Part shown: positions 3,188 through 32,179 of the stretch, in pieces | Layout of the letters: every line of letters begins with the position of its first letter | Numbering within the stretch: position 1 is the first letter of the stretch | Source: a virus | Direction: 5' to 3' (one strand) | DNA: 38,507 nucleotides | IMG/VR virus record: IMGVR_UViG_3300010354_000221 | Span: 1-38,507 of that record | Position numbers and translations under genes: made by a program | The notes under the pieces: model-generated | Seen by the model: only the letters and a program-made list of their open reading frames with translations | Told to the model about the DNA's origin: nothing | Database searches by the model: none

Positions 3188-3208
3188 ATTTTATTCCTCT
3201 ATTATTTT

Positions 3209-3218
3209 TATAAATAGT
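3209..3218 (-). promoter_or_regulatory. ACTATTTATA motif, candidate late promoter or processing signal
   Basis: The coding strand reads ACTATTTATA directly after the stop of the 176-aa gene, about 22 nt before the ATG of the 474-aa gene. It is one of six close matches lying just upstream of genes. Promoter activity is inferred from recurrence and position only. Confidence 0.4.
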
Positions 3219-3219
3219 T

Positions 3220-3750
3220 TTAAGAAACATCATAAGCAGTTGGATTCTCATTGATTGCCAATAATTTATAAGAACCAGACGTTGCTATATCTGGGGCGTA
3301 CATACCAACAAAAACTTGTGATGCGCTAGTAAATAGCTCGTAAGCAATAATATCATTAACCCAATTAGCAGAACCACTTTCTTTAACCATTAAATTAATA
3401 ATAAAATAATCTTGATCCGCAACGGCAAAAGATGAACTTCCATATTGCGTTAAAGGTAAAGCTTCTTCCGCGTAACCTTCAGCGTTAAAAGTCCCAGTGA
3501 CCTTATATCTTAATTTTTTATAATTAACATTAACGATAGTGGTATCAGCACCACCACCAGAAGCAGATATGTTTGTTAAATATCTACCATCACCGACAAA
3601 AAACGATGCAGTGATTGGTAGTGAAGAACTTACAGTACCATTGTTTAATGAACCAGATATTTTAAAAAGAACATTACCGTCAATATCTTGCTTAATAACT
3701 TGTTTTTTAGTTAAAAGGTCTGTAAGAACTTTTACTGGCTTTACTGCCAT
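3220..3750 (-). CDS. Short fibre protein (N- and C-terminal modules without shaft)
   Basis: This is a 176-aa protein whose first 50 residues (VKVLTDLLTKKQ, DGNVLFKISGSL) resemble the N-terminus of the 474-aa fibre, and whose last 100 residues (ALPLTQYGSSSF, WVNDIIAYEL, YKLLAINENPTAYDV) resemble that fibre's C-terminus. Between them lies only a short FVGDGRYLTNI segment, a motif common at fibre joints, and a glycine stretch. It therefore looks like a minimal fibre: the same attachment and end domains with almost no shaft. AGAGGA lies about 13 nt before the ATG. The gene begins 5 nt after the stop of the 84-aa gene. It could be a short tail fibre, a baseplate adaptor, or a capping paralogue of the longer fibre. 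Confidence 0.85.
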   Translation of the reverse strand: MAVKPVKVLTDLLTKKQVIKQDIDGNVLFKISGSLNNGTVSSSLPITASFFVGDGRYLTNISASGGGADTTIVNVNYKKLRYKVTGTFNAEGYAEEALPLTQYGSSSFAVADQDYFIINLMVKESGSANWVNDIIAYELFTSASQVFVGMYAPDIATSGSYKLLAINENPTAYDVS

Positions 3751-7168: not shown

Positions 7169-8140
7169 TTAATAATTTATCCTTGTTGAAACTGCTTCTG
7201 GCGAAAACCCACCTTCGCTTTTGCTAACAAAAAATCCGCTATGTCTGCAATTTAAAGTTGTTTCATCTGCCATATAAGTACCGCTTGGAAACAAAATAAA
7301 AGAGTATTTTAATGGAGCAGATGAAGTATTATACATCTGAAAGCCGTTTGGACCCTCAGAACTTGAACCAACATTTATGTATAGATTGTAACTTGAAGGA
7401 TTAAAAATAATTAAAGTTGAACGATCATTATCACCATCGGCTATTAAGAATGTTCCACTTGCACTTGATGTGTAATCAATATAATAGTCGCCAGTTGTGT
7501 AAGAATTATGAACAGTTTTTGTTGCAAAAGATGTTGTGGAGCTTTTTTTATAAATTGTTGCAATTGGGCTTGTGTTCGAGGCGGTTATGGTTAAACTGCT
7601 ATTATTAATTGAAGCTGTAACATTTAAAGAAGAATTATTAATAGAAGATGTTACAGAAAGTGAGGTATTATTTATATTAACCGTGCCTGTTATCGTTGGG
7701 GTTCCGCTGATTGAGGCAGTCACTGCATTGCTAGATAAAGTTACTGTCGGAGTTCCGCTGATTGAGGCAGTCACTGCATTGCTAGATAAAGTTACTGTTG
7801 GGGTTCCGCTGATTGAGGCCGTTAAAGAAGAATTATTAAGAAGTAGCACTGAACCAGTTACCAAGACTGGGCTATTTGCTGATGACGAAATAAAAAGAGG
7901 ATTTGCGGCAGACGAAGTAACAGATATATTGTCTGCAACTGTTATATCAACATTGACAGGCTGTAAAATAGCTACTGAACCAGTTACTAAAACTGGACTG
8001 TTTGCCGAAGAAGTCACATTTACGGATCCACTTATAGCATGAACTGGCACTAGACCATAACTTGAACTTTGAGCTGCTAAACTTGAATCTGCGCCTGCGC
8101 CGTCTTTTATTGCTAATGTATTTGTTGCGATGTCTGCCAT
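7169..8140 (-). CDS. Repeat-containing virion adhesin/fibre
   Basis: This is a 323-aa Ser/Thr/Val-rich protein. The N-terminal third has two SSANSPVLVTGSV units. The middle holds a 17-residue tandem repeat (SISGTPTVTLSSNAVTA) followed by shorter INNSSL-type repeats (NNTSLSVTSS, INNSSLNVTAS, INNSSLTITAS). The C-terminal 110 residues form a compact beta-domain (STLIIFNPSSYNLYINVGSS, FPSGTYMADETT, CRHSGFFVS) like those at the end of other phage fibre-like proteins. AGAGAGAA precedes the ATG, and a variant of the intergenic motif sits in the 26-nt gap before it. The shaft length is probably evolutionarily variable because of the DNA-level repeats. Confidence 0.85.
   Translation of the reverse strand: MADIATNTLAIKDGAGADSSLAAQSSSYGLVPVHAISGSVNVTSSANSPVLVTGSVAILQPVNVDITVADNISVTSSAANPLFISSSANSPVLVTGSVLLLNNSSLTASISGTPTVTLSSNAVTASISGTPTVTLSSNAVTASISGTPTITGTVNINNTSLSVTSSINNSSLNVTASINNSSLTITASNTSPIATIYKKSSTTSFATKTVHNSYTTGDYYIDYTSSASGTFLIADGDNDRSTLIIFNPSSYNLYINVGSSSEGPNGFQMYNTSSAPLKYSFILFPSGTYMADETTLNCRHSGFFVSKSEGGFSPEAVSTRINY
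7701..7819 (-). repeat. 51-nt in-frame tandem repeat in the 323-aa fibre gene
   Basis: The string GTTCCGCTGATTGAGGC (plus strand) recurs at 7701, 7752 and 7803, an exact 51-nt period. The first two units are nearly identical at the base level (TGTCGG versus TGTTGG at the end), and the third is partial. The period is 17 codons, so copy-number change keeps the frame. The near-identity suggests recent duplication or gene conversion. Confidence 0.93.
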
Positions 8141-16600: not shown

Positions 16601-16667
16601 AAGTTAAAAGTGGATAATTTGTTTCTCTAATTTTTACTATTAAATCTTCCGTGGCGTTTAAATACAT
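13647..16667 (-). CDS. Large virion/baseplate protein, family not recognised (start corrected to ATG at 16667)
   Basis: This is a 1006-aa Lys/Asn/Ile/Phe-rich protein. A TTG at 16673 extends the frame by two codons, but ATG at 16667 shares an A with the upstream stop (TAATG) and has GGAGAAG 7 nt upstream, matching the coupling at two other junctions; I therefore start at MYLNATEDLIVKIRETNY. I see no recognisable catalytic motif. The first 150 residues appear beta-rich (LTSFSIKSAVFRSSGT, CDLDINIV). The C-terminal 100 residues (TQIPNLTNKLEKNKPRLNVS and after) look like an extended or helical tail. By position and size it might play the part of T4 gp7 (1032 aa), a large wedge protein, but I see no motif proving it. 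It ends in TAG. Confidence 0.8.
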   Translation of the reverse strand: MYLNATEDLIVKIRETNYPLLTSFSIKSAVFRSSGTDTLCDLDINIVENITNPKILKKQDKKENLKLKIFQISSDSMKNELLSATNIEQINNIINKYGTESLEIFPSIEFIGDKKDINQHYLEDDNVTLLYQKKFIFREKNLGFLSYGMIFYYSLQDFMTRTGLMKEYITIEALSSNLKIIDIFDESGKNVNPDIVQDIRSINKIFKTSEILEKINEKINFDYKFTKIASQQIKKEPTDVFFSDLHHSRDTLGNSNILFSIDYKKLIQKNSNFSKLLNNSIFSSDLQEKCKISSIKVVRRHLQYTKDNKKYYLKKLPVELVASTSQKKDFSLFLFEKEDNNSLIREIDLFDNFRTIEVVDKTLYKNKNSFYQYGVEITVNDGYVNYLNEIKKLFLENIAVFKSYLNETNNLVKYRNNSKNISPIQGFYDPITNSFTRNFAENVFPASYESKLTDAVTNFVRTIKLFGLLLDDDNDLVANMLGLLSPASANTTTINYFIKLYEKVCLQIERILKDNTNTFFTIEHWFEKQIINSSEGSSIGYGFFNIPNKKNELTRVSNQVFEEKIAKDIFEYTKNNSISEAVESYRFSSVGPEFINSKNKKIAIKNIRTINNDDFVDLELDIKRYNSLGNEEKEASIENFINSKSPEKQKLILKTEKLINSYSFITKNLFLPLEDNEKIKINAAEIGDFQDNTVNPEILFLGMLKNTKPKPFFNKAPRILKNNKLGIFSEKIIEKEMFIPFQIYSLIQKNDSIFSDANIKYLTNLENNSKFLLLYNTVHSIEIKLESKNIKDSNWQILTKSLYTSLPQNKKFLCRLKLFSDSSFDLNFFEEVSLPIFDKHFILEKNVSAENVELSLKKLKNTNLFYLLSLRSKIKFNKIEKTFKIIDVQKNIFQKNRPITQIPNLTNKLEKNKPRLNVSLPVNLTNTNLEILTKPITKLSAVIQKPLNELNLTKEISIEEQNTISNVIIESRNKIVDTQKTISTQEKEKILTIEAIKMFSTVKSLK

Positions 16668-17641
16668 TAACAATCTTCTCCAAAAGGTTTTGTTTGAGCT
16701 GGGTTTTGATAAATTCCAGACGTATCCACCTTAGCATCTTCTGGTAAGTCTATTTCTTCATCAACTAAAATATCTAAATAATATTCTACATTTGTTTCAT
16801 CTGGCGTGGCATATGATGCCTCTTTATAAATATAGTCGTCAAGTAAAATATTATTTTTTATATTTGTTGGTTTTTTAAAAAAGTACAATTTTTTCCAAAT
16901 TTTTCTTTTTTCACCATTTGGTAATAATTCTTCATCTTCTAAAAAGACCTCTAACTCAAAATTTTTGTTATTGTCTTCTACGTTTTTTTCTAATATATCA
17001 AATATTTTAGTTAGCTCGTCTGCATTGCCAGTTAAAATAACATTTTTGTCTCTGGATATACCAATTTCAACTAGTATATTTTCCTTACTTGTTACGTCAT
17101 CCATTTTTTCTTTTGAAAAAATTTTATAACTACCAGTAGCCATATTGACCTGTGGTATGTTATAAAAATTTTTATACAAACTTACTGGATTTTCAATAAT
17201 TAAGCTAGAATCTGTTGTATCTATTTTTGAATTTTCTGATAATACTTTTAAATTCCATGCTGGATAATATTTTGAATTAGGGGACGATTTGCCAAGTGGG
17301 GCAAGAACAATATTTTCTGCGTCATTATATCTTCGCAGACCTTCTTCTGATTTTTTTAATCCCTCTAAATCTTCATTAATTATTAATTGCTCTTGTTCTT
17401 TGGCTTTTATTGAAACCGAAAAAACATTATATACAGGTTTACTTATAGGAGTTTCTTCTAAAATTCTAGTCTGTGCCGCATTTTGACTTTCTGTAACACT
17501 TGCATGTTTTGCGTCATATAAAACGTCATCATCAAAAAAAGAATAATAGTAAGGCTGAAATTTGCCCTTAGAAAGCAGATATTTACCATATTGTGTAAGT
17601 TCTATATTAATTATTTCTTGTTTTGAGTCAAAAAAAGACAT
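16667..17641 (-). CDS. Phage structural protein with LTxYGKYLLSKG N-terminal module
   Basis: This is a 324-aa protein beginning MSFFDSKQEIINIELTQYGK and continuing YLLSKGKFQPYYYSFFDDDV and LYD. The layout (hydrophobic strand, LTxxG, L-x-KG-F, then an acidic DD-x-LYD turn) parallels the start of the 330-aa protein, so the two share a diverged N-terminal module. The remainder is acidic with no enzyme motif (LEVFLEDEELLPNGEKRKIW near the middle, VDEEIDLPEDAKV near the end). The ATG overlaps the stop of the 3633-aa gene (TAATG) and GAGGAAA precedes it. It is most likely a small baseplate or tail component made together with the giant protein. Similar proteins occur in T4-like marine phages, to my memory. 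Confidence 0.83.
   Translation of the reverse strand: MSFFDSKQEIINIELTQYGKYLLSKGKFQPYYYSFFDDDVLYDAKHASVTESQNAAQTRILEETPISKPVYNVFSVSIKAKEQEQLIINEDLEGLKKSEEGLRRYNDAENIVLAPLGKSSPNSKYYPAWNLKVLSENSKIDTTDSSLIIENPVSLYKNFYNIPQVNMATGSYKIFSKEKMDDVTSKENILVEIGISRDKNVILTGNADELTKIFDILEKNVEDNNKNFELEVFLEDEELLPNGEKRKIWKKLYFFKKPTNIKNNILLDDYIYKEASYATPDETNVEYYLDILVDEEIDLPEDAKVDTSGIYQNPAQTKPFGEDC
16675..16681 (-). promoter_or_regulatory. Ribosome-binding site deciding the 1006-aa start
   Basis: Coding-strand GGAGAAG lies inside the last codons of the 324-aa gene, 7 nt before ATG 16667. This favours that ATG over the in-frame TTG at 16673, which would sit too close to it. Confidence 0.75.
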
Positions 17642-20600
17642 TAATTATTTTCCTCTTTTTCAGCTTCAAGTTCAATTTCTACATTAACCATTTCTACTAA
17701 AGAACAAAAATCATATGGATAATTAAATGAATATTTTGGTATTTCTCTTTTTGATTTAAAATTTTTAAATTTAAATCTTGAATCTTCTGGTGAATCTTCA
17801 ATTAATTCATAGTAGTTTGTGCCTGCTTTTTTCTTAACTTTAAACAACTTCATTCTTGTATCTGGTTCTGGTTTTAATCCGTGGAATAAATCGTTTTTTG
17901 TTAATGGATGAGAGATTGTAAAATCTTCTAGTTCTGTCGTGTAAGAAGATTTTGGCATCAATCCCTGCCAAATATCCGATAGATCATCTCTTTCTAATCT
18001 TGTGCTGAATTCTGCTATATACATAACAAAAGGGTCTATACTTAGATTCCTTAACCAGTCTAAATGAGGAGGAATAACATAGTTTGTTAAAGAGTTTACT
18101 AATTTTACAATGCTATTATTTTTATCTACCTTGTCAGACTGAACAACCGACTTTATTTCTTCAAATGTTATTTTTGAATTTTTATCAAAAGACAAACCAA
18201 GTGCCTTGCTTAAAACTTCTCTATCAATTTTATAATAATATGGACCATTTTTTCTAGAGTTTGCATCATATATACCATTTTCTCCTAAAATTTCTGGTAA
18301 TGTTTCTGCAAAATTTCTATTAATAGAGCCACCATGATTTTTAATAAAAGTATAAGGGATCATTAGAACACCTTCTTGTAAGCTTTTATTATCTCCAACT
18401 AGACCAATTGTTCTTTTTTCATCTTTTTCAAAACCACATAAATCAATCAAAGAGCCAGTCCCTCTTCCTTGAGCATTTTGTGAAGATGTAAAAGAATTTT
18501 GAATATAAAAGTCTATACCCTCACCAGATTTTGTTGGAGAACCATATGTCGTCCACATGCCTTTAAACAAATATTCATAAAATCCTCTAATCCCGCTAGA
18601 AAGTTTTTCTCCTCCAATAAATCTTAAACCAAGATTACCAGACAATCTGCTATTAATAAAATTAATACTAGGAGTTTCATATTTTGTCTGTATAACCCAA
18701 GAGTAAGAATTATTTTCTCTATCTTTAATAGTATTAACTGTAGATGTTTTAGAGTCGTGTTCTACATTTTTTTCTTGCTTCTTTAACAATAAATTAATAC
18801 TTGCACTTAAATTCATTCTTTGAGTATATGCTGGAGAATTCTTATAATTTGTATTAACTGGTGCTGTAAAATTATTTTGTAGGAATGAGCTTCTTTCGGC
18901 AAAAAGATTTTCAAGCTCTTCGTTTATGTACTCAATTTTAGCTTTTGATTGTATTTCAGCTAATGTATAATTTCTTGTTTCATCCGCTAAGAAAGATATT
19001 CTTCCAACAGCTTTTCCATAATAATAAGGAGGTACATAAGGAGCATAAGAAGGTGTATCAATTAACTTAAAAAAGTAATTATATGGGCTGTAAAAAATAT
19101 CATACGTATTTGTTTGCCAGTATCTTGTAGGTGGACCGTATAAAGAGTCGGCAGATGGTAATAATAATACGCCATCTCTAAAATTACTTCTTATTGTTTT
19201 TAAACCTTCTTGATAAGGATCGGCAAAAAACTGCGTAAAATTGTCTTTTGCTTCCAAAACAACATCCATAAAATATGTTGTACCAGAAATTGCAGTTTTA
19301 AATTCTGTTTCAGGAGATGATTTAAAATTATTTAATTTTTCATTTAAGAAAAAGTTTGGCACTTCTGCCAAAAAATTATGCATTGCAAGTTTGTAAACAC
19401 TGTCAGTAAACATAAATTTTCTAACAGACCCAGTACCCATATTATAAAGAGGAAATGCTAAATCAGTGTAATCAGAACCAGTAATTGTATCTGATGAATA
19501 GTAGGTTGGATTTAAGTAATAAAGATTATTTGAACTATTTTTAAGCTGTTCTGGGATGATCGTATCAAATTCTACCAATGATTCAAATGGAAATCTGAAA
19601 TTAAATTCCGAGTCAATATAAAATGAACCACTATATGATCTTCTTTCTAATGCTATGGCGTCGTATAAAGTTTCTTTAATTAAACTTGAACCAGAATTTG
19701 AATAAAATCCAGGTTTTGTACTAAAACTACCAGAATTTGCTATAAACGTTGGAAAATCTACTGCAATAGAAGCCTTAATTGTATTTAATAAAATTCCTGG
19801 TGAAAACAACGGCTGCATCAAAGCCAGAGCTTGTCTGTCTATTGGCGTTCCATTAGATAGCACTGAACTAAATTTTTCATCCGCATCTATTGAAGAAGTA
19901 ACAGAATTATCTTGAGATAGTAAGAATGAATTTAAAAAGTAATTTGATAATTGTAAAATATAATCACTAGGATAAAAGTTTTTTTCTGGTCTTAATTTTT
20001 TGATAGCAGAAGTTTTTATTTTTAAGGAAAGATTTTCATTATTTTTTACATTTTCAAAAATTGTTTTGCTTCTAATTGTATCTGTTGAAACAATGTTATT
20101 ATTTATATTATTTGAATCTTTTATATTTTCATCAAATCCTCTATAAGATAAATAATCTTCTTTTAATATAGTTGTAAAATTTCCATTTTTTTCTTTTATT
20201 GTTTTTTCAACATAGCTGCTAATTTTATATTCTGGTATGACAGAGTATTTTTGGGACATTGGTTTAAAATCTATTGCATAATCGCTATAAGAATCAAAAA
20301 ATGGTTTTTTACCAGAAATTTCTTCTATTTCGTATACATAACCGTTATTTAAAATATGGATAAATTCTTGTCCCCTATATTGAGTTACTTTTTTAATTGT
20401 ATTAGAATCGCTATTATATTCAACTTCATCTATTCTCATACCACTACTTTCTGTTATTCCAACTGATGGTGGTATAAAATTATTAAAAATTAATTGTGGT
20501 TTTGGCATTAATATAGATCCGCTATATCCCTCTATTTGTCTAGAGTATTTTCTGTCTTTTAGAACGGGACCAGATCTTGTGCCAAGATATTGACCAGCTA

Positions 20601-23600
20601 TATAAAGTTTATTATCGACCATTGTAAGACCAAGAACCTTGTCTTCAGCTGTTAAGTTAAAGCCGTTTCTTTCATCTCTTCCAATTACGTTCCACGTGTT
20701 ATTACTCCATCTTGCTATATTATTTACCAGTGTGTTACCAGCTTTTGTAAATTCTCCTCCGACATATAGGCCAGTTGATGTTGAAATCATGGTATATACG
20801 GGTCCATTTAATCCAGTTCCAAGAGCCGTAAAAGAACCAGTAATGCTTGGAACACCACCTACATCATTAGGAACAAATGTACCACCATTGTATTTTACTA
20901 TATTATTAGCAGCTTTTCCGCCAGCTGTAGTAAAATTACCTCCTATAAAAACTTCAGAAACGCCGTTACTTGCCGTAGGACTTAAAGCTATTGAGTATAC
21001 AGGACCACCTATACCAATAGTACCAGAGCCAATTCCAACAGCCCCATTTATTAATTTTTGGCTATTGAACCCAACACTAGCCTGCGTAAATCTTTTTATA
21101 TAATTAAACGTGCTGTTACTATTGCTACGATAGGAGCCAGTAAAATCTCCACCTATAAATATCCCAAGCGATGAAGATGCAATACAACGTACTGGATAAT
21201 TTTTTGGGTCAAAAACTCCCTCCCCAAAAAATGTTAAACCACCATACCAGCTTGAACTTTCAGGAATAAACGCCGCTATACCTTTCGTAGCAGAAGAGCC
21301 ATCAAATTCATCAAAAGCGCCAACTGCAATTATATAAGTTCTGTTGTCATAAGAAGCAGTAATTACTTGGTATACTTCATCATTTGGCTGGCTAGAACTA
21401 TAAAAGGGAATCCATTGATTATCCTTCCATCTAGCAATTCTATTATAATTTGCATTTCCTCCAAAATTTCCACCACTAGAAGTAGTAAACGCCCCAGCCG
21501 CAACCAAGCCAAAATGAGAAGAAGAGCAAATTGATTTTACAGATACGTATGGTGCGTCGTTTGATGTTGGGGTATTAAATAGTTCAGCACCACCAGAGGC
21601 TGTTAGACGGTTAAAGTTACCACCATGATATCTTGCAATTCCGTTTGCAACACTTCCGCAAACAATTGAAAAATTACCAGCAACATATAAGCCTTCCGAG
21701 CTGGAGATAAACGCATAGCTTGAAGTTGTTTTTAGAGTATCAGAGAAACTATCGTCTATTCTGCCATTTAATTTATAAATGTTAGTACGAGAAATGTCGT
21801 AATAAGAAAGATTGTTTAAAGTATACTGTATGTTTCTTCTTCTATTATAGTCTGTTTCTAAGAAAGTTATATTATTTAGATAGCCTCTAAATTTATCACT
21901 ATCTTGTAATGTTATTGTTTTTTTATAATCATTTCCAGTTCTATCAAAACTGCCTCCAAATAAAAATACATCTGGGTCTGCAACTGTTGGCTGTTTATCT
22001 ATAAAGTTTTCAAGTGTTTGTACAGAACCAGTAAGCGCCTTTACAACGCTCCAACTGCCAGAGAACGTAGCGCGAGAAGTAGTATTGTATCGTAAAATAT
22101 ATGAAGTCCCAAGATAGCTAGAAGAAGCAGCTGCATAAAGACCAGAAGAATTAGATAAAATATCATTAACAATCAATTCATTAGAAATTCCAATACTTGT
22201 TTTAAAATCTTTACTACTGTCGATATTTTCCCATAAATATATCCCTACATCTAAATATTGATAATATTGATTAACGTTGTTCCATCTTGCCACACCACTT
22301 GAATATCCTTCATTATTTGGAAAATTTCCTGCAATAAAAAAAGAGCCACTGTTGTCTGCTGAATCTTCACAGATTGACGCAACTGTTGTAAAGTATGACT
22401 CAAACTCATCATCTGGCTTACGTTTCCATCCATTTGCAAGATGTCCAATACCGTGAAAATCATCATCTGGAGGATAGTAAAGTATAGGCCCTTCAAACCT
22501 GCCGCCTGTTACGTAATTATCCTCATTGCCAATAAATCTTCCTCCAATTACTATTCCTTTTCTACCAGACGCATACCCGCCTATGCCATTTGAAGTAGCC
22601 GAGGCGGTCATAATACATAAAATTATATCTCTAGTGTCTGTTTCATGGAACGGAGATGCATCAGTTCCAAATTTTGTTCCAGTATTTTTAAAGGCGTAAC
22701 CGCCATCACCATCTTGATAATCGTCTATCGCAAAAAAACCAAATTTTTCAAATTCAGTGTATGGCGCAGCACCAGCAGGGTCAATTCCGCTAAAATTACC
22801 GCCAACATAAATAATTTTGTTGGTTGTTAAACCAAAATTACTAACTGCGACTGGGTGCAGAGTCGAAGTAATAGCAGTTCTAATTTCTCTTTTTTCTGTT
22901 GCTGATTCATCGAGTAGCGCACCTTGTATTGGAGTTAAAGCGGCTATAGCAAGATCAGGTTCAACAAGATAATAGAGAACGACACCAGGGGCATCGACAT
23001 CTCCCCCTTGTTCTTCTGTTGATACTATAAAATCAAAATTTCCGAACGCAAAAAAATAATTTTTACCATATGGTATTACTTTATAAATTGTTGTTTCAAA
23101 CTCATTAGATTGTTTTATAACTCTAAACTCGCTAGGGACACGAAAATATGATCCCGCCTCTGTGTTGTATCCAGCGATTGTTTCTTGGCCATATGCAGTA
23201 GCAAATTTACCACCAAATAAATAATAATAATTATTTACAGCACAATCATAAACGCTAGAAGTTAAGTTGTATGTGTCATCAAAGGGAAGACCTTCTAAAA
23301 GTTTATTCATACTACCAGAATAAAAAATTGATATATTTTGATAATCAAGATCTGACAAAATACTTGAAGTCTCTAAGGAAACCGTAGAATTATCATAATC
23401 ATTATATGAATCTAAAGAAAATATTGAATTTTTATAAGTCTTGTTTTGATTTATTGTGAAAGAACCTTCGAAATCATTTCTTGGATAAAAATTATTTGCA
23501 TAAGCGTCCATTGTTCTACTGCTTGGAAGATTATTTAAGTTTTCTTTTGCAAACCCGTATAAATCAAAACTACCAGAAATTTTTTCTCTTTGTTTAACAT

Positions 23601-26600
23601 CATCTTTCCAAAAAGTGTTTACATCAACAACACTTGCGGTGCTATCTGTTTCTTCGTAATTTGGCTTTGAACGAACTTGGTATGTTGTTATGTCTTTACG
23701 TTTTGGAAAAATATTTTGTGCATATGTTTTTCTTAAAATTTTTGGTCTTGGTTCGTACAAACCATTTTCTAGTTCTGACAAAATATCGTTTGTTTGAGGC
23801 TCTGTTCTTTCTTTCGCTCCCAAAATTTTTGTTAAAGAATCGTTAGCTAGTTTGTCTTTATTGTTGTCATAAGTGCTTAAAATTTCTACTGGATTTTCCG
23901 AACCAGTAACAGCAACTAAATGTGTCATTGGTGCGTTAAACTGGACTGGTGGTTCCTTATACGATGTAAAAGTATCAGAAATTCTATCTTTATAAAAGAC
24001 AACTCTTTGTTTTTCTATTTTGCTTTTTTGCTTTGGTGGATCTTGTACCAAAATTTTGTTATTTTTTCTAGAAAGTTTAAGTATTCTTTTATCTGCATTT
24101 CTAATCTGCTTCCAAGAAGCCATACCATAAGGGCCGTCTTTTGCTAATAAATATGTATTTAAATTTCCACTCAAAGATGATAGTGGAGATATTGTATTAG
24201 AGGCGGTATTTACATTAATTATAACATTTGTATTTAAACCAATAAAATCCGCAACCGCACCTAAACCACCAGCGGTCAAAGAGCCGCTACTAGCGCTTAA
24301 GAAGGCTAATGAGGAAGTATAATCTCCTTGAGAATATACTGTTAGATTATCATAATCCGTGATATAGCCGCCAGCATTCATGTTTCCCGTTAAAGAACTG
24401 GATATCCACAAATATTGTGAATCGCTTCTTGGTATCTGGTGGACAATAAACTGATTATCATATTTTGTTTTTGTTCCAATATTTGCATCATCGCTTGTTA
24501 ATATTGAAAATTGTTTAAATGAATTTTTATTTACTTTATGTAAAGAAGGTCTTTCTTCATTTATACTTGAAGTTTCTGCATATAATCTATTTAAGTTTCT
24601 TCTAACTACATAGTTCCTATTATTTAATTCATTGTATGGAGAAAGCTCTTCGCCTGTATGCTCTAGCGCGCCCCTACTGATAACTTCTGCGCCACCTGGA
24701 GCAGAAAATCTTTCTACAATAACAGTTTTAACTGTTGGTCTTGTTGGCAAAGCTCTATCAACTACACCGCTGATGTCTGGGTTTGGGCTAGGTAAATTGA
24801 TCGTATCAATTATTTCGTTTAAACCTATATTTGTATTAGTTCTACCAGAAGTTTGTACGTATTCATATTTATTAAAATAATTTCCTTGGTCTACATCTGG
24901 TGTTAAAATTTGTCCAGAGGCCGTTAAAGATTCTGATGCGAATGTAAATGTAGAATTGAAAGGTATATTTTGAACTTTTAAAGGATTTATTACTGAAACT
25001 GGGTTTTCTAGAAGTGATGACGTAATAAGCCCGATATTTGAAAAGGCTCTAACAATATCTTCTTTTCCTTGATATTCTACTTCATTTACTGTATCATATT
25101 GTTTAGGAACTTGATTTAAATTTTTTCCAAATATAACTTTTCTAATTTGCTCTCTATCGCGGTCAACATCTGCATCGCCAGAAGAAACCAATGGATTAGT
25201 TCTTTCTACTCTTTGTTTAAGCCACATAGAACCAGTAGGATTGTTTGCTGCCACTTGTTCTTCATACTTATATCTTAATGGGTTTGTTGTTGTAGTTACT
25301 GGTTCGCCCTTTTTTTCTAACGTTGGAAGCTTATTTTCATACTTATTTCTCTCTAATAGATGGCTTTCAATAATGTTTCTAACGTTATCAGAAACATTTG
25401 CAGAAGCTGGTATTAGCTGATTAATCATCAACGAAATAGAAGAATCAATCCATTTAAAAAACTCAATAAATTTTTCAAAGTCTGGTTCATTTCTTACTTT
25501 TTCAAAAAATAGTTTTCTTAAATAAGAGAGATTTTTGTACTCTTTACGATATCTTTCTGATGGATCGCCTATTAAATTATTAAAAGAATGGATCGTAGCG
25601 AACCAAGACATGATCTCGTCGTTTATTATCTGAGACATGCTTTTTTCTATTGAATAGAAATATGTTATTGGTTTTGAGTTTCTTGTTACATTTATGTCAT
25701 CTGTATCTCTTATCTGTATAAGTTCTGAATTTGAGATAACTTCTGGGTTTTGCAGCTTGGCTGCATACACGTACTCTTTATTTGTAACTTGGGTGTCGTT
25801 TGGATAAAATGCTTTAGCAAAACCAGAATGGCGGTATTTTACAATATCGCCAAGCCAACCAAAATTATATTCAAGAGCTGCCGCGACTGATCCACTAGAT
25901 ACATCTTCAACAGTAAACTCTCCTTGTGCATTTGAAGAAGTTACTGTATTGAAGTCCCAATTTAAAGCTAATAAATCTGCTTTTGAAAGCATTAAAGTAT
26001 TGGCATCTTTATTTGTTAAAAAAGCATTCCAATAAGGATATTGTCTTCCAAAACTTGAAGGATCGTATGAATGAGCTTTTAATTCATCGTCACTTAGATA
26101 ATCAAGCCAAAATCTTACAGAAGAAATTTTAACATCCGTGCTTGCCAACAAACTTGAAGTGTCAAAATTTTGATAATGGGCACCAGCATAAACTCTCTTA
26201 TTTTTAGATAAAGCAGTTTTTGCGTCACTTTCGTTGATTGATGCAGAAAGTACAAAATAATTTTCTGTACTATCAAGAACAGAATTGTAACCGACAAATT
26301 CTAAAATATAACTACCTGTAGCACTTCCAGTTATAAGATTAGTATTTTCAAGTTTTTCTGGTTTAATCCTTACGGCTAAATTCCATTTATTATTTTCATA
26401 TAAATCATTAAAATAACTACTTGATAAATGAAAGCCAGAACCAGAAAGAGATCCGCTAATTGCAAAATAAGCATCTTTGCTACCAAAATCTCTTTTTTGT
26501 GCATATACTTTAAAATTAAATTCGTCGTTACCCCAACTTAATAAACTTTGATTACTATTTGCGGTATGTACTCCAAAAAGAGAAACCTCAGTAAAATTTG

Positions 26601-28542
26601 GTATAGAATAGTTTGGATCGTCTACTGATGGTTTTTTTGGAAATATAATTTCAGCTTGGACTGTTACTGGGACATAATCTAATTTATTTGATGAATTACC
26701 TTTTATATAACCTCTTGTATTAGAGTCTCCTGAAATTGCATATTGATAGATAACTCCAGAATTGCGGTCTGGATCATTAAAGTCTACAAACTTTTTTGGA
26801 ATTGATGTATATGTGTACTTATCTTTTATTTCATAAACTGCATTATCGGCATAAAGATTTATTTTTATTAATTCATCATCAACACCAAAACAACGAATAA
26901 GGTTTCTTAAAGATTTTTCTGTACCTTTTGACTTATAAATATATGTTAAATTGTTATAAATATTTTGATAAATAGTATTTTTTATGTCTGCTAGCTTATT
27001 TTCAAATTCCGATGTTTCATTTCTAGATAAAACATCCTCTATGAACGTAGAGTCATTAAAAATTTCAATATTTTCAAAATCATACGATGAAAGAATTTTA
27101 TTTATAAATGGTAATGGTTTTTCTGTTTCTTTGTAATATTTTACATCTTTTATTCTTGGCAAAGACTCTATTTGAAGATGTAAAGTGTCAAAATAACTTG
27201 AAATAATTTGTACTAAATTAGATAATTCTTGACCGCCAGAATTTTCGTCTTCTTCAACTATCCAAGATGGTAAACTTTTAAAAATATTTGAATTATTTTC
27301 AATATCGTATAGAGAGCCAGAATTTGTATAAATATCCAAAGTTTCTGCCACTAAGGAATTAATTGGATATAAGATAGGATCTTTTTCTTCCACTAAGCTA
27401 GAATTAAATTCTTCAATGGCTGAACCAGTGCTTCTTACATTTATAGAATAATTTGCTATAGTGCCATTTGAAATACGTCCAGAATAATCTAAGCATTTGG
27501 AGTCTAGGGTATTAATACTATCTGTAGAAATTATACCTTCATTGAATTTAAAATATACACCCAGCTCAGTGTTTGAATCATCGGTATTTGAACCGCCACC
27601 AACGTTAGTAAACCAGTATCTACTGATATTTTTAGAGCTTCTTGCTTCTTTCCAAAATCTAAATTCATCATAAGAACCGCTGCTATAAGCAACCGTACCT
27701 GTTCTGTATGCTCCAATATAAGCAACAGAACTTGCATTGTCAGCAGAACCATCAAAAGCAGAACCAGTAGTGATTTCTTTTTTTAAATCTCCATCAACAT
27801 ATAATTTAATCTCTAAACCATTAGAAGCGCTGTTGACTGTAAATGCATAATGGTGCCAAGCTGTTATATCATGAGAATAAACAACATTTGCGTTTGAAAC
27901 GCCTCTTGAACCAGAAGCATACGTTATCGCAAAACCAGTAGATTTTTTTTCCAATAAAAATCTAGTGTAGTTTGGTTGATTACTTGCAACGCCATTCCAA
28001 AGATCAAAAAGAGCGTAAGAAGAAGAAGCGTTGTTTGCTTCTTTATACCAAAACTCTAAAGTATTTCCAAGATTTAATGGATTTATTGCTAAATTAGATT
28101 CTCTATTGGAAGCGGTATCAAATATATTTGCATCTGCAAATTTGCCAGTAGAAGATGTGTGCGGACCACCATTTATAAAAATATATTGAGCAGTTGCAGC
28201 GTTGAGTGTAACAAAACCAGCTGATTTTGGATATATATTATCAAAAACATATAGATCAAACTGTGAAGAATTATTTCTCCACTCTAATTTTTCTTTTCTT
28301 GAACCATCATATGGATATCTTTGATAAATATTCTTTATTGCATCCGAGTAGTATTTCTCGGCGGAACCATATTTAGCAAAATTAGAAGCAGACGAAAAAT
28401 CTATTGCGGGCAAAAATCTTTGATTATCTTTTGATATTTCCTCAAGATACCCCTCAGACTCTGCTTCGTCATAAAGTTTTTGCACTTCTTGTGATGTTAC
28501 GACTTTCTCTGATGACTTGCCAAATAAATCTTTTATTGACAT
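17641..28542 (-). CDS. Giant 3633-aa multidomain virion protein (LamG, gpI-like motif, beta-propellers)
   Basis: An uninterrupted 10.9-kb frame. Visible layout: a short helical start (1-110); a LamG/concanavalin-like domain at about 150-320 (LEFWYKEAN, WHHYAFTVNS, KLYVDGDLKKEI, YDEFRFWKEARS); a helical region with YKSKGTEKSLRNLIRCFG at about 532-552, recalling the KGT-x-x-GL/R motif of P2 gpI-type baseplate proteins; a second LamG-like domain at about 620-830 (KWNLAVRIKPE, VKISSVRFWLDYLSDDEL); an extended region; about 14 propeller blades at about 1770-2660 (VFIGGNFTTAGGKAANNI, LYVGGEFTKAGN, NNIARWSNNTW); and a 970-residue unassigned C-terminus. LamG and propeller folds commonly bind glycans. 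It lies three genes after gp25 and two after gp6, so it is probably a baseplate or tail-tip protein with adhesin capacity. AAGG precedes the ATG. Confidence 0.85.
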   Translation of the reverse strand: MSIKDLFGKSSEKVVTSQEVQKLYDEAESEGYLEEISKDNQRFLPAIDFSSASNFAKYGSAEKYYSDAIKNIYQRYPYDGSRKEKLEWRNNSSQFDLYVFDNIYPKSAGFVTLNAATAQYIFINGGPHTSSTGKFADANIFDTASNRESNLAINPLNLGNTLEFWYKEANNASSSYALFDLWNGVASNQPNYTRFLLEKKSTGFAITYASGSRGVSNANVVYSHDITAWHHYAFTVNSASNGLEIKLYVDGDLKKEITTGSAFDGSADNASSVAYIGAYRTGTVAYSSGSYDEFRFWKEARSSKNISRYWFTNVGGGSNTDDSNTELGVYFKFNEGIISTDSINTLDSKCLDYSGRISNGTIANYSINVRSTGSAIEEFNSSLVEEKDPILYPINSLVAETLDIYTNSGSLYDIENNSNIFKSLPSWIVEEDENSGGQELSNLVQIISSYFDTLHLQIESLPRIKDVKYYKETEKPLPFINKILSSYDFENIEIFNDSTFIEDVLSRNETSEFENKLADIKNTIYQNIYNNLTYIYKSKGTEKSLRNLIRCFGVDDELIKINLYADNAVYEIKDKYTYTSIPKKFVDFNDPDRNSGVIYQYAISGDSNTRGYIKGNSSNKLDYVPVTVQAEIIFPKKPSVDDPNYSIPNFTEVSLFGVHTANSNQSLLSWGNDEFNFKVYAQKRDFGSKDAYFAISGSLSGSGFHLSSSYFNDLYENNKWNLAVRIKPEKLENTNLITGSATGSYILEFVGYNSVLDSTENYFVLSASINESDAKTALSKNKRVYAGAHYQNFDTSSLLASTDVKISSVRFWLDYLSDDELKAHSYDPSSFGRQYPYWNAFLTNKDANTLMLSKADLLALNWDFNTVTSSNAQGEFTVEDVSSGSVAAALEYNFGWLGDIVKYRHSGFAKAFYPNDTQVTNKEYVYAAKLQNPEVISNSELIQIRDTDDINVTRNSKPITYFYSIEKSMSQIINDEIMSWFATIHSFNNLIGDPSERYRKEYKNLSYLRKLFFEKVRNEPDFEKFIEFFKWIDSSISLMINQLIPASANVSDNVRNIIESHLLERNKYENKLPTLEKKGEPVTTTTNPLRYKYEEQVAANNPTGSMWLKQRVERTNPLVSSGDADVDRDREQIRKVIFGKNLNQVPKQYDTVNEVEYQGKEDIVRAFSNIGLITSSLLENPVSVINPLKVQNIPFNSTFTFASESLTASGQILTPDVDQGNYFNKYEYVQTSGRTNTNIGLNEIIDTINLPSPNPDISGVVDRALPTRPTVKTVIVERFSAPGGAEVISRGALEHTGEELSPYNELNNRNYVVRRNLNRLYAETSSINEERPSLHKVNKNSFKQFSILTSDDANIGTKTKYDNQFIVHQIPRSDSQYLWISSSLTGNMNAGGYITDYDNLTVYSQGDYTSSLAFLSASSGSLTAGGLGAVADFIGLNTNVIINVNTASNTISPLSSLSGNLNTYLLAKDGPYGMASWKQIRNADKRILKLSRKNNKILVQDPPKQKSKIEKQRVVFYKDRISDTFTSYKEPPVQFNAPMTHLVAVTGSENPVEILSTYDNNKDKLANDSLTKILGAKERTEPQTNDILSELENGLYEPRPKILRKTYAQNIFPKRKDITTYQVRSKPNYEETDSTASVVDVNTFWKDDVKQREKISGSFDLYGFAKENLNNLPSSRTMDAYANNFYPRNDFEGSFTINQNKTYKNSIFSLDSYNDYDNSTVSLETSSILSDLDYQNISIFYSGSMNKLLEGLPFDDTYNLTSSVYDCAVNNYYYLFGGKFATAYGQETIAGYNTEAGSYFRVPSEFRVIKQSNEFETTIYKVIPYGKNYFFAFGNFDFIVSTEEQGGDVDAPGVVLYYLVEPDLAIAALTPIQGALLDESATEKREIRTAITSTLHPVAVSNFGLTTNKIIYVGGNFSGIDPAGAAPYTEFEKFGFFAIDDYQDGDGGYAFKNTGTKFGTDASPFHETDTRDIILCIMTASATSNGIGGYASGRKGIVIGGRFIGNEDNYVTGGRFEGPILYYPPDDDFHGIGHLANGWKRKPDDEFESYFTTVASICEDSADNSGSFFIAGNFPNNEGYSSGVARWNNVNQYYQYLDVGIYLWENIDSSKDFKTSIGISNELIVNDILSNSSGLYAAASSSYLGTSYILRYNTTSRATFSGSWSVVKALTGSVQTLENFIDKQPTVADPDVFLFGGSFDRTGNDYKKTITLQDSDKFRGYLNNITFLETDYNRRRNIQYTLNNLSYYDISRTNIYKLNGRIDDSFSDTLKTTSSYAFISSSEGLYVAGNFSIVCGSVANGIARYHGGNFNRLTASGGAELFNTPTSNDAPYVSVKSICSSSHFGLVAAGAFTTSSGGNFGGNANYNRIARWKDNQWIPFYSSSQPNDEVYQVITASYDNRTYIIAVGAFDEFDGSSATKGIAAFIPESSSWYGGLTFFGEGVFDPKNYPVRCIASSSLGIFIGGDFTGSYRSNSNSTFNYIKRFTQASVGFNSQKLINGAVGIGSGTIGIGGPVYSIALSPTASNGVSEVFIGGNFTTAGGKAANNIVKYNGGTFVPNDVGGVPSITGSFTALGTGLNGPVYTMISTSTGLYVGGEFTKAGNTLVNNIARWSNNTWNVIGRDERNGFNLTAEDKVLGLTMVDNKLYIAGQYLGTRSGPVLKDRKYSRQIEGYSGSILMPKPQLIFNNFIPPSVGITESSGMRIDEVEYNSDSNTIKKVTQYRGQEFIHILNNGYVYEIEEISGKKPFFDSYSDYAIDFKPMSQKYSVIPEYKISSYVEKTIKEKNGNFTTILKEDYLSYRGFDENIKDSNNINNNIVSTDTIRSKTIFENVKNNENLSLKIKTSAIKKLRPEKNFYPSDYILQLSNYFLNSFLLSQDNSVTSSIDADEKFSSVLSNGTPIDRQALALMQPLFSPGILLNTIKASIAVDFPTFIANSGSFSTKPGFYSNSGSSLIKETLYDAIALERRSYSGSFYIDSEFNFRFPFESLVEFDTIIPEQLKNSSNNLYYLNPTYYSSDTITGSDYTDLAFPLYNMGTGSVRKFMFTDSVYKLAMHNFLAEVPNFFLNEKLNNFKSSPETEFKTAISGTTYFMDVVLEAKDNFTQFFADPYQEGLKTIRSNFRDGVLLLPSADSLYGPPTRYWQTNTYDIFYSPYNYFFKLIDTPSYAPYVPPYYYGKAVGRISFLADETRNYTLAEIQSKAKIEYINEELENLFAERSSFLQNNFTAPVNTNYKNSPAYTQRMNLSASINLLLKKQEKNVEHDSKTSTVNTIKDRENNSYSWVIQTKYETPSINFINSRLSGNLGLRFIGGEKLSSGIRGFYEYLFKGMWTTYGSPTKSGEGIDFYIQNSFTSSQNAQGRGTGSLIDLCGFEKDEKRTIGLVGDNKSLQEGVLMIPYTFIKNHGGSINRNFAETLPEILGENGIYDANSRKNGPYYYKIDREVLSKALGLSFDKNSKITFEEIKSVVQSDKVDKNNSIVKLVNSLTNYVIPPHLDWLRNLSIDPFVMYIAEFSTRLERDDLSDIWQGLMPKSSYTTELEDFTISHPLTKNDLFHGLKPEPDTRMKLFKVKKKAGTNYYELIEDSPEDSRFKFKNFKSKREIPKYSFNYPYDFCSLVEMVNVEIELEAEKEENN

Positions 28543-28544
28543 AT

Positions 28545-29975
28545 TTATTCAACCTTAAATTTAAATACGTTAGGAAGCTCTCTTAAACTTGCTTCATCCC
28601 ATCTTGCTAATTTTATACCATAAACATAACCTTTTTCAATATTATTCATATCTAATTCAAAAAAATTACCATTTGAATCATATGAAGTTTTTGTATAGGC
28701 CAAAGAGCCAGTAGAATAATCCACTACCGTATAACTATCACTAAGTCTAAAAATTTTATAATAAAGATCAGGTATTATTTCATTTTCTATAATATTATTT
28801 GCAACAGTATAAATTGTTGGACGCCAATCTTTTTCTCTAGCAAAAATTTTAAATTTTGCAACTTCATTTTGTTTATAGGTATTTTTTAAATTTGTTATAT
28901 TAATAATATAATCTTCATTTGTTTCATAATCATAATTTTGTCTTTGCAAAACATCAAACGAGCTTGAAAATATGGCTAAAGAAGAAGTTGTATTATACCA
29001 TTTGTCGTATACAACACTTGCTGTTGTATCTAATGAAACAACAGCTTTATAAATACCAGCTAGAGGGTTTGTTACTTGTAGAAAAGAGGAAGATAATTCG
29101 TTTGTTAAAGTAGAATTAGTATAAAACTTCACTCCTGGTATTATCCCTCCAGCTATATTTTTTAATTTTCCATTTACCTTATTATAAAAATAAATGTTCA
29201 TTTTATTATCTGCCGAATCTAAGATACTGCTTGAAGCAAAAAAAGAAGTTCTATCATCCTTTACAATGGATTCCCATCTTGCCTCTATTACTGGTCTTTT
29301 ATAAAAAAATTCTGATCCGCGAGCAGAAAACTTTTTAGTGTAGAAGCTCCTAAATTGGTCGCCCTCTTCAAAAGAACCAGACATCTTTACCATAAAACCA
29401 TAATTATTAAGCGTTCCAGACATCCATTGTTCTACAATGTTAGTAACATCTAGCTCTATGTCCTCTGTACCATCTTTAAAAGAAAAATCATATGTGTAGC
29501 CAGAAGAAGATAAAAAAGAACCGCCAGCGGATGTCCAAACCGTTCCGCTCGTTGCATAACTCCAAGTCGATCCAGCGCCTTTTAATCCGCTAGTAGACCA
29601 GCCGTTATCTGAATATGCTTCCATATCTAAGCCATATCCTTCATCCCAAGATTGTGAAACAACTGCTACGCTCGCAGTATAGTCTTTTGGAAGACTAAAA
29701 GGATGTTTTACATTAAAGAGCCTAAAATAAAATTTAACGCTTCCAGAAGCTGGTAAGACAGAATTATTTCTATCATTTACTAAATCACTTATTGGAAATT
29801 GAACTAAAATTCTGCTCTTTTCAACAGAAGAAGTATTTGCTTGACCAAAAATTGAAAAAATCTCTAATGAATCCGATGCTCCCATATTTGCATCAGTTGC
29901 TCTATTAATTAAATCAATTTTATAGGCGTTAGTTATTGTTGTATCTTTATCCGCTATATATTTTTTAAAAGGCAT
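28545..29975 (-). CDS. DNRLRE-like beta-domain structural protein
   Basis: This is a 476-aa protein. Residues about 1-215 resemble the DNRLRE/disaggregatase-related beta-sandwich of surface and carbohydrate-binding proteins: an opening repetitive-strand segment (KDTTITNAYKID), SRILVQFPISDL, FYFRLFNVKHPF, SQSWDEGYGLD, and the hallmark LDVTNIVEQWMSGTLNNYG at about 176-195 followed by FMVKMSGS. Residues 216-476 are further beta-strands of unknown family. The ATG shares a base with the stop of the gp6-like gene (TAATG), with AAGGGAAG about 10 nt upstream, so it is translated together with the wedge protein. It probably decorates or bridges the baseplate and fibres. The glycan-binding idea is inferred from the family only. 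Confidence 0.82.
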   Translation of the reverse strand: MPFKKYIADKDTTITNAYKIDLINRATDANMGASDSLEIFSIFGQANTSSVEKSRILVQFPISDLVNDRNNSVLPASGSVKFYFRLFNVKHPFSLPKDYTASVAVVSQSWDEGYGLDMEAYSDNGWSTSGLKGAGSTWSYATSGTVWTSAGGSFLSSSGYTYDFSFKDGTEDIELDVTNIVEQWMSGTLNNYGFMVKMSGSFEEGDQFRSFYTKKFSARGSEFFYKRPVIEARWESIVKDDRTSFFASSSILDSADNKMNIYFYNKVNGKLKNIAGGIIPGVKFYTNSTLTNELSSSFLQVTNPLAGIYKAVVSLDTTASVVYDKWYNTTSSLAIFSSSFDVLQRQNYDYETNEDYIINITNLKNTYKQNEVAKFKIFAREKDWRPTIYTVANNIIENEIIPDLYYKIFRLSDSYTVVDYSTGSLAYTKTSYDSNGNFFELDMNNIEKGYVYGIKLARWDEASLRELPNVFKFKVE

Positions 29976-31777
29976 TATATTATGCTTCCCTTAATATCAG
30001 TATTAGGATATTTTAACTCCATTACAACATTTAATGGAACATTAACATATCTTTTATCTGGCGAGGTGTTTTCTGTAATACTAAAAACGCTATCAGAGTA
30101 AACGCCACCATTTTTTGGAACTATATTTACACTTATAACATCTAAAAGCCCATTAACTTTTTTTAAACTACTCAAAACATTTGTTATAAAAAAAGTTTCT
30201 CCAAACTCTGGTAGCATGGCAAAATCTTTTTTAAGTTGAGCAATAGCGTCTGCAAGAATATCGTATTTTGGTCTATCATTGCCGCCTAAAGCAACAAACT
30301 CTATACCATAATTTACAATTTTTCCGTCTAAAATGTCTATTGAATCATTTAACATTTTGCTTTTACTTAACCAAGTTTTTAAATTATTTTTTACTGTTTG
30401 ATTTGCTTGTGTTAATAGTCCGCTTGAATCCTCGCATAAAACATAAATATTTAAATTTCTTTTCAAAGAATCATCATCTCTTATAACATTGACTCTTCTA
30501 ATGGATCCATATTTTTTTGGCATAGAATATGCCAATGATTTATAATCGTTTGCGGTTACTGCTCGATTTTGAGTTGAAAAACAATTTTGTATTCTAATTT
30601 TTAATTCATTAGAATCAAATACTCCAATTTCTCCAACCAATGGCGCGTCATTTGTAACCTCTAGACTATTTTTAACAGTACTTTTTAAACCGATAGATAA
30701 ATTTTCTTCATCATTAAAAGCAAAATTTGCTCCTTCAACATTTATTAAAGAGTTGACTCCAAAATTTATACCACTGTTTACTGGGTTGTATCTGTATGCC
30801 ACCGTTAAAACCGTATTTGATGGTGAAATACCAAATTTATCGCTGTTTACCAATGCCGTGGGATCAAAAGAATCACTTGATATATATTCTTTTCCTAAAA
30901 TATCTAAAACAGCCCTCGAAGGCTCTGCTAAATAGCTTTTATTGTCGGCTAGAACAACATCAGAACTTGCTCCAAATTGCAAATATGTCGCTCCAATTTC
31001 TGTTTCAACAGTAAAACGTCTTGGTACTATAAATGGCTTTACTATTTCTTTAGCTAATTTAGCAGATGTTGCATCTCTATTTGTTACAGATCTATATATA
31101 ACATTTTGCGATAAATAATCTACTTCAAAATATTCGTTACCCTCGTCATCAACTACAGAAATAATCTCAACTATGTTTGGCTCAACCAACTTTAATTTTA
31201 AAAATTTTTGATAATCACCTATAGTTACACGTTCTGATTTTATAACACCAGAAATCACTAAACCATTGGCTTTTATACCATAAGTTGTAGGAAGCCCGTT
31301 TGAACCAATAATTAAAGGTCTAACTTCATTTGTTGGCAAATCAAATCTAACGTCTTCATTTAATATAAATTTTGTTTTATTTTTGGTAGAAAATACGCTA
31401 CCTCTTTTTAAAGTTGGTGCGTATGATAAATTTGGTCCAAGACCAGTAGAATTGGATGGTACTGAAATATAAAAAGTAGCTATTCCAGTAGAAGTTGCAC
31501 CATTTGTATATTTAAAACCAACTTGTTTTGCAATTTTTAATACATTATCAAACTCTGAGGCTGTTTCTAAGAATGATTCGTTTGCCTGATAATCTAAATA
31601 AAAAGATAGAATGTCTCCAACATAGGAAACTGTATCGACCATCAAAGATCCAAAACTTCCTTCATTAAAATCCTGAAAAGAATCTGGATAGTATCTCTTG
31701 GCATGCTCAATAAGATCTCTTCTTATTGAATCATAATCTCTGCTGGTATATTTTATTGGAAGTACTTTTTTAGGCAT
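29975..31777 (-). CDS. gp6: Baseplate wedge protein, gp6/Baseplate_J family (start corrected to ATG at 31777)
   Basis: This is a 600-aa protein (T4 gp6 is 660 aa). A TTG at 31798 would add seven residues, but ATG 31777 has AAAGAGGG 8 nt upstream. The N-terminus carries the family pattern: KYTSRDYDSIRRDLIEHAK, FNEGSFGSLMVDTVSYVGD, YLDYQANESFLETAS and KIAKQVGFKY. A later block (RAVTANDYKSLAYSMPKKYG, SIRRVNVIRDDDS, LNIYVLCEDSSG) is the conserved Baseplate_J region. In contractile tails this protein forms the ring of dimers that joins the wedges and transmits sheath contraction. It follows the gp25-like gene, as in T4, and ends overlapping the next start. Confidence 0.93.
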   Translation of the reverse strand: MPKKVLPIKYTSRDYDSIRRDLIEHAKRYYPDSFQDFNEGSFGSLMVDTVSYVGDILSFYLDYQANESFLETASEFDNVLKIAKQVGFKYTNGATSTGIATFYISVPSNSTGLGPNLSYAPTLKRGSVFSTKNKTKFILNEDVRFDLPTNEVRPLIIGSNGLPTTYGIKANGLVISGVIKSERVTIGDYQKFLKLKLVEPNIVEIISVVDDEGNEYFEVDYLSQNVIYRSVTNRDATSAKLAKEIVKPFIVPRRFTVETEIGATYLQFGASSDVVLADNKSYLAEPSRAVLDILGKEYISSDSFDPTALVNSDKFGISPSNTVLTVAYRYNPVNSGINFGVNSLINVEGANFAFNDEENLSIGLKSTVKNSLEVTNDAPLVGEIGVFDSNELKIRIQNCFSTQNRAVTANDYKSLAYSMPKKYGSIRRVNVIRDDDSLKRNLNIYVLCEDSSGLLTQANQTVKNNLKTWLSKSKMLNDSIDILDGKIVNYGIEFVALGGNDRPKYDILADAIAQLKKDFAMLPEFGETFFITNVLSSLKKVNGLLDVISVNIVPKNGGVYSDSVFSITENTSPDKRYVNVPLNVVMELKYPNTDIKGSII

Positions 31778-31785
31778 CAATTTTT

Positions 31786-31793
31786 CCCTCTTT
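31786..31793 (-). promoter_or_regulatory. Ribosome-binding site deciding the gp6-like start
   Basis: Coding-strand AAAGAGGG ends 8 nt before ATG 31777. The alternative TTG at 31798 lies upstream of it, so the ATG is preferred. Confidence 0.8.
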
Positions 31794-31798
31794 AACAA

Positions 31799-32179
31799 TT
31801 AATTAGATGTTAAAGAAAGATTTAACTGATCTCTTACGTTAATAGATGGAATAAAGAATACAATAGATACGAACAGAGCATTTTCATTGCTATCAACTGG
31901 TGCAATAACAACATCTTGTACGCTTATAAATCTCATATATTTGTTTATTTGTGTTTTTATTTTGTTTGAAATTTCACCATTTAAATTTTTATTATTTTGA
32001 GAAAAAAGCAGTGTTCTGATACCAGCTCCATAATCTGGTAACATCATTCTTTCACCAGGATTAGTCAATAAAAGCATCTTTAAGTCTTGCTTTATTGACT
32101 CAAGTAGTGTTTTATTCATGCCATATAGACCATCGTCTGGGTCTTTTACTAAAGGTAATTTTGGAGATACGCCCTGCAT
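31799..32179 (-). CDS. gp25: Baseplate wedge protein, gp25 family
   Basis: This is a 126-aa protein (T4 gp25 is 132 aa). The family signature is clear: LPLVKDPDDGLYGMN near the N-terminus, then LKMLLLTNPGERMMLPDYG followed by AGIRTLLFSQNN, and a C-terminal strand pair with LFVSIVFFIP. In contractile systems gp25 sits at the core of the baseplate wedge and nucleates sheath assembly together with gp6. TAGGAG lies 8 nt before the ATG and overlaps the TAG stop of the 2074-aa gene, so the two are coupled. The following gp6-like gene keeps the T4 order. Confidence 0.95.
   Translation of the reverse strand: MQGVSPKLPLVKDPDDGLYGMNKTLLESIKQDLKMLLLTNPGERMMLPDYGAGIRTLLFSQNNKNLNGEISNKIKTQINKYMRFISVQDVVIAPVDSNENALFVSIVFFIPSINVRDQLNLSLTSN

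Follow-up and report, generated by a model that had tools for sequence, protein, structure and literature searches.

T4 gp7, P2 gpI and XM1 gp17 are the third subunit of the (gp6)2-gp7 baseplate wedge and are encoded after gp25 and gp6, as is the giant protein described here. gpI and gp7 are regarded as homologous in the contractile-tail literature, and T4 gp7 and P2 gpI carry a KG[TI] helix motif at a place equivalent to that in the giant. Unlike the giant, to which their sequence link is suggestive, these three proteins are 176-1032 aa long and contain neither LamG nor propeller domains; flexible parts of XM1 gp17 have been reported to serve spike binding (PMC10457771). In pelagimyophages T4 gp7 is absent and apparently replaced by VrlC, and concanavalin A domains occur in unidentified structural proteins (PMC7029224). 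Cyanophages fill the gp7 slot with giants of 3-4.2 kaa (phrog_2885, phrog_701 and phrog_4406), which lie directly after gp6, bear recognition-type domains and, in several cases, carry a KGT motif near the N-terminus. In S-PM2 the product of the gene after gp6 (S-PM2p084) is a virion structural protein of 3048 aa that contains both a YHYH domain and a KGT motif. Other cyanophages have relatives of it up to ~4.2 kaa long, whose annotations read gp7, wedge subunit or wedge initiator; S-SM2 gp7 is about 4156 aa. Because wedge proteins of this length are annotated in cyanophages, giants in the gp7 slot are already known and size alone is not new: the original prediction that our protein is far larger than typical baseplate proteins holds against T4 or P2 but not against these phages.

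The window analysed here is the whole of a single 38.5 kb IMG/VR virus record (38,507 nucleotides). The continuous frame that had been predicted is exact in both position and length and lies on the minus strand, which the prediction had not given (Table 1). Pfam returned a single above-threshold match for the 3633-aa product, the LamG domain at residues 159-307. Scans of IMG/VR with the whole protein or the propeller region alone found no relatives; a core alignment was required, which identified 549, of which we kept the best 80. In 43 of these 80 one complete ORF encodes the whole protein, at 2741-4317 aa, which rules out an ORF artefact. The source is an uncultured tailed virus of bacteria, and the giant ORF product is probably a tail-baseplate protein of a contractile-tailed phage. 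Elsewhere in the window (7169-8140), a 323 aa protein carries a short unit in tandem copies (TLSSNAVTASISGTPT).

Table 1. Features of the giant ORF and neighbouring genes, in window positions.
Feature	Coordinates	Strand	Basis
gp25/gpW-like baseplate wedge protein	31799..32179	-	PF04965 E=8.4e-16
gp6-like baseplate wedge protein	29975..31798	-	phrog_219 E=9.1e-20; full-length match to immuto and Mel-JY01
u476, 476 aa protein between gp6 and giant	28545..29975	-	synteny
Giant ORF, candidate baseplate protein	17641..28542	-	3633 aa, ATG start
N-terminal helical region, residues 1-109	28216..28542	-	46-76% identity to near relatives; AF2 model
LamG/jelly-roll domain 1, residues 110-300	27643..28215	-	Pfam PF13385 (Laminin_G_3) 159-307 E=2.2e-13; AF2 and Foldseek LamG/pentraxin matches
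gpI/gp7-like helical module, residues 388-572	26827..27381	-	most conserved module (54-76%); profile comparison
KGT motif segment, residues 530-560	26863..26955	-	YKSKGTEKSLRNLIRCFG
Predicted LamG/jelly-roll domain 2, residues 576-812	26107..26817	-	AF2 pLDDT mostly 80-95; Foldseek neurexin match; distant relatives
Conserved helical segment closing wedge-like core, residues 948-1090	25273..25701	-	50-66% identity; present in immuto, Mel-JY01, LR756508
Variable zone, residues 1082-1216	24895..25299	-	insertion sites in relatives and gene-split zone
Middle scaffold block, residues 1200-1650	23593..24945	-	family-conserved; absent from immuto/Mel-JY01/LR756508
Propeller cassette, residues ~1756-2660	20563..23277	-	insertion relative to L005; blade HMM
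First propeller array, blades 1-7, residues ~1756-2215	21898..23277	-	weak; motif spacing, L142 alignment; low AF2 pLDDT
Linker between arrays, residues 2200-2262	21757..21945	-	aligned with L142 and L006
Second propeller array, blades 8-14, residues 2263-2660	20563..21756	-	blade HMM, AF2, Foldseek, phrog_5490
C-terminal scaffold block, residues 2750-3633	17644..20295	-	47-54% identity to near relatives
u324, 324 aa protein downstream of giant	16667..17641	-	synteny

The gene order gp25-gp6-u476-giant-u324 is kept in 13 of 13 inspected relatives, wherever the locus covers the stretch, and the gp6-like protein also matches its LR756508 counterpart over its full length. The giant therefore follows gp25/gpW and gp6/gpJ with one 476 aa gene intervening, which places it in a contractile-tail baseplate operon, near the position that gpI or gp7 takes in simpler phages, and supports the baseplate location originally predicted. 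The intervening protein gave a weak Pfam match to Disaggr_repeat (E=0.0014, below cutoff) and none to PHROGs.

Within the module taken to resemble gpI, residues K537, K539, G540 and T541 are the same in all 50 relatives compared. Profile-profile comparison aligned this motif with P2 gpI (P=9e-4), T4 gp7 (P=2.4e-3), cyanophage gp7 (P=2.1e-4) and a merged gp7 set (P=9.8e-5, at the same motif), with reversed decoys at P=0.12-0.69. Because a control pairing of the N-terminal block with gp7, to which it is unrelated, reached P=0.0049, single P values near 1e-3 are indecisive and the profile match is not proof; because gpI and gp7 miss one another in the identical test (P=0.12), the test is also underpowered. 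The T4 gp7 segment with the equivalent motif (730-758) matches the giant wedge family phrog_2885 (E=1.3e-4), and the N-terminal profile of the cyanophage giants matches T4 gp7 at P=1.3e-10. Searches of Pfam, PHROGs and the PDB with the module gave no match above noise, PF09684 appearing in 1 of 25 members at E=0.15. Thus the P2 gpI-like segment of the original prediction survives as a motif whose profile comparisons gave P between 1e-4 and 2e-3, without the Pfam-level match. Core homologues, detected at E=3e-19 to 1e-24, are encoded a short way past gp6 in three phages: a 1265 aa protein in Flavobacterium phage immuto, one of 1336 aa in Microcystis phage Mel-JY01 and one of 1400 aa in LR756508. 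Gene position and KGT invariance provide independent support for wedge membership; together these comparisons suggest that the module is the equivalent of gpI/gp7, by position and weakly by profile, and that the giant likely belongs with the gp7/gpI wedge proteins. Separately, one IMG/VR contig (IMGVR_UViG_2974739009_000001, loci L185 and L186, at 99755 and 113270) holds two T4-gp7-like matches ~13.5 kb apart, a duplication or an assembly repeat.

Across the family, alignment resolves conserved blocks at residues 1-1100, ~1200-1650 and ~2750-3633, split by insertion-bearing sites. Relatives carry extra sequence near residues 170-220, 1082-1115, 1178-1216, 1249-1283, 1313-1360, 1425-1457 and 2934-3082, and LamG domains account for 19 of the 48 inserts tested at sites other than the propeller site (best E=2.2e-24). 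Single members of one insert among the 48 match Intein_splicing (1.5e-6) and PT-HINT (2.4e-7), which suggests a putative intein inside the giant baseplate protein of a relative. A Pfam search with the C-terminal ~880 residues (2750-3633) gave no match. Identity to near relatives falls from 50-76% in scaffold modules to 32-54% in the LamGs and 25-30% in the propellers; a slow core with fast LamG and propeller parts is consistent with an assembly core under constraint and exposed surfaces that change quickly, as would be expected if these modules serve recognition.

In two relatives the gene is split between residues ~1095 and 1270, suggesting that core and extension are able to function as separate chains. 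The junction in L063, near 12210, reads TAA followed immediately by ATG, and that in L036 (12420-12440) reads TAG, a Shine-Dalgarno-like AGGAG and then a second ATG. Two ORFs also represent the giant in L007, L010, L042, L074 and L082 as assembled, where assembly errors are possible.

Both LamG-like domains of the original prediction were recovered, the first with certainty by its Pfam match. An AF2 model of residues 1-1105, built from 50 sequences (mean pLDDT 74.9), contains two jelly-rolls, and a Foldseek search of the PDB with this model returned LamG, pentraxin and neurexin structures (best 5.3e-7), including a two-domain neurexin fragment (L2-L3) that aligns across ~740 columns. The second domain has no Pfam match of its own and is assigned from its predicted fold and from distant relatives: it sits between the KGT module and the next helical segment, the place at which Mel-JY01 and LR756508 likewise carry a LamG-type insert.

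The fourteen blade cores that had been predicted were each found near the position given. We trained a blade HMM on 163 blades from other phage propellers, leaving out the window and two relatives with blades of their own, L142 and L006. It scored the window protein at 68 bits (E=5.2e-21), whereas the best of 200 shuffles reached 7 bits; the shuffles and the independent training exclude a chance repeat. Blades 8-14 are strong as a group and several score individually, whereas blades 1-7 are individually weak. An HMM of blades 8-14 scored 8.9 bits against the first half, narrowly above the best of 200 shuffles (8.2 bits), and each of blades 1-7 pairs with one blade of the first L142 array, the direct score of the two arrays being a modest 84 (shuffle mean 50, max 73).

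An AF2 model of the propeller region, built from 16 sequences, gives most of the second array a pLDDT of 60-93, whereas in the first 300 residues of the first array most values lie below 40. The second array is predicted to form the repeated four-stranded blades of a beta-propeller, and its Foldseek matches, among those listed, are mostly propeller proteins or complexes containing them (c-MET sema, Lis1, Cdc20, RAG2, DDB1). Residues 2349-2653 are covered by phrog_5490 (E=2.5e-6), labelled unknown function in PHROGs, and the DUF5122/Rax2-like propeller family of Pfam (DUF5122) reaches just E=0.29. The figure of seven blades in this array comes from the motif count and the L142 count rather than from a confident closed ring. 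The second propeller is therefore well supported, and the first is drawn from motif spacing and weak homology. The prediction of two seven-bladed propellers accordingly gains from the apparent single seven of L006 and the 7+7 of L142, but AF2 and Foldseek, the check it had named, bear out the second array and leave the first at low pLDDT. Neither the propeller nor the C-terminal part nor the L006 array had a tblastn match among phages, PDB sequence searches gave chance matches only, and phrog_5490 had no match in contigs of five relatives, a negative that carries no weight since controls were equally without match. Apart from this family, the 888 aa protein encoded in L085 (5145-7808) and L137 has a highly regular series of 14 Rax2/kelch-type blades (Rax2 E=1.6e-57); these IMG/VR contigs might be bacterial DNA, not phage.

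Few family members fill alignment columns 1750-2650. The propeller site spans 63-181 aa in 27 of the 28 relatives in which both edges could be measured, compared with ~1010-1090 in the window; the exception, L007, has a site of 654 aa that holds two LamG domains (PF13385, 2.5e-31). In L005, with 57% identity to the window over the core, the site lacks blades, whereas the equally close L006 carries a single array of seven blades by eye, part of which the HMM detects; L006 is the only other family ORF searched that the blade HMM matches. On a 168 kb contig, L142 (L108) encodes a 3696 aa protein with two arrays, 7+7 by eye, joined by a linker in common with the window. A scan with the downstream edge of the cassette returned just two loci, both already known, and the cassette was found in three loci only. 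Because the site is mostly short, and empty in L005, the cassette is lineage-specific. The propeller array is thus an accessory cassette within a conserved scaffold, a feature that the original prediction missed.

We consider it probable that the giant, in a contractile-tailed phage, serves as an enlarged wedge protein of gp7/gpI type and as a platform for exchangeable binding domains. Its N-terminal ~1100 residues, into which two LamG-fold domains are built, would keep the (gp6)2-gp7-type wedge assembled, and the remaining chain would form a scaffold bearing exchangeable binding domains at fixed sites; the site at ~1755-2660 would be occupied, in the window phage, by a cassette of two seven-bladed propellers. 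By analogy with T4 and XM1 (PMC10457771), six copies may surround the baseplate with their cores on gp6, and the extension may display the LamG and propeller modules outward, where they could bind carbohydrate or another receptor. The differing contents of the sites suggest that these viruses alter their grip on the host by swapping domains inside one giant protein. A bolder reading, which we offer as a tentative possibility, makes the wedge protein a modular receptor-binding chain, in which LamG and propeller exchange at fixed sites within the gp7-type subunit, not mainly separate fibres, sets host range in this phage group.

Alternatively, the extra domains of a gp7-type wedge protein could be purely structural, forming a baseplate skirt or second layer while separate downstream fibres carry out recognition. 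Almost every member has LamG domains 1 and 2 (column occupancy in the family alignment 0.94-0.99), a pattern that fits structural domains, and several other tail-type genes lie downstream of the giant in the window; yet the propeller cassette and most of the extra LamGs vary between close relatives, and it is the LamG and propeller folds that diverge fastest, which makes a purely structural role unlikely. That the protein is a large tail-fibre or tail-tip adhesin lying beside gp6 by accident, its KGT motif a chance resemblance, draws on the weak sequence link of the module to gpI/gp7 but is very improbable given that the KGT residues do not vary in 50 relatives, that their module is the most conserved part and aligns with three gpI/gp7 families at the same motif, and that in distant phages the core persists close behind gp6 while the adhesin parts are absent. 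If the giant is instead an enlarged wedge protein, a core baseplate subunit appears to have been turned, in a common and uncharacterised phage group, into a single-chain platform with fixed sites for binding folds, and one site, which related phages leave empty or fill with one array, two arrays or LamG domains, makes the effect of domain exchange on host recognition directly testable.

UniProt already lists homologues of the core among its uncharacterised viral proteins: the marine-virus entries A0A516MAV8, A0A1B1IUQ9 and A0A0F7L9Z0 have the same core fold along the full model, with E to 1e-103 and 33-38% identity. The proteins of immuto, Mel-JY01 and LR756508 have the homologous wedge-like core in the same neighbourhood, with no detectable N-terminal block, middle or C-terminal scaffold, or propeller cassette. 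The blade type of the giant recurs outside its baseplate family, in a group of phage tail-type proteins of ~820 aa (L110:1095-3575 and comparable loci among L085-L141), of which L110 combines CBM_4_9 with a C-terminal, Rax2/DUF5122-type array of seven blades. Recognition domains on a contractile injection machine have a precedent in the beta-propeller lectins of eCIS tail fibres (PMC12923769); there the propellers sit on separate fibre proteins, whereas those of the giant sit in a candidate wedge protein. The cyanophage gp7-slot giants place the KGT module at residue ~195, compared with ~540 here, carry different domains and have no full-length sequence similarity to the window family. We rejected homology to the S-PM2 giant outside the KGT module: the scaffold blocks had no match to S-PM2p084, and only the KGT module is weakly similar. 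In the part of the literature covered, we found no published description of this combination of scaffold, built-in LamGs and propeller cassette. Relative to the known giants of the gp7 slot, what sets this protein apart is an unrelated scaffold, LamG domains built into it and an exchangeable propeller cassette.
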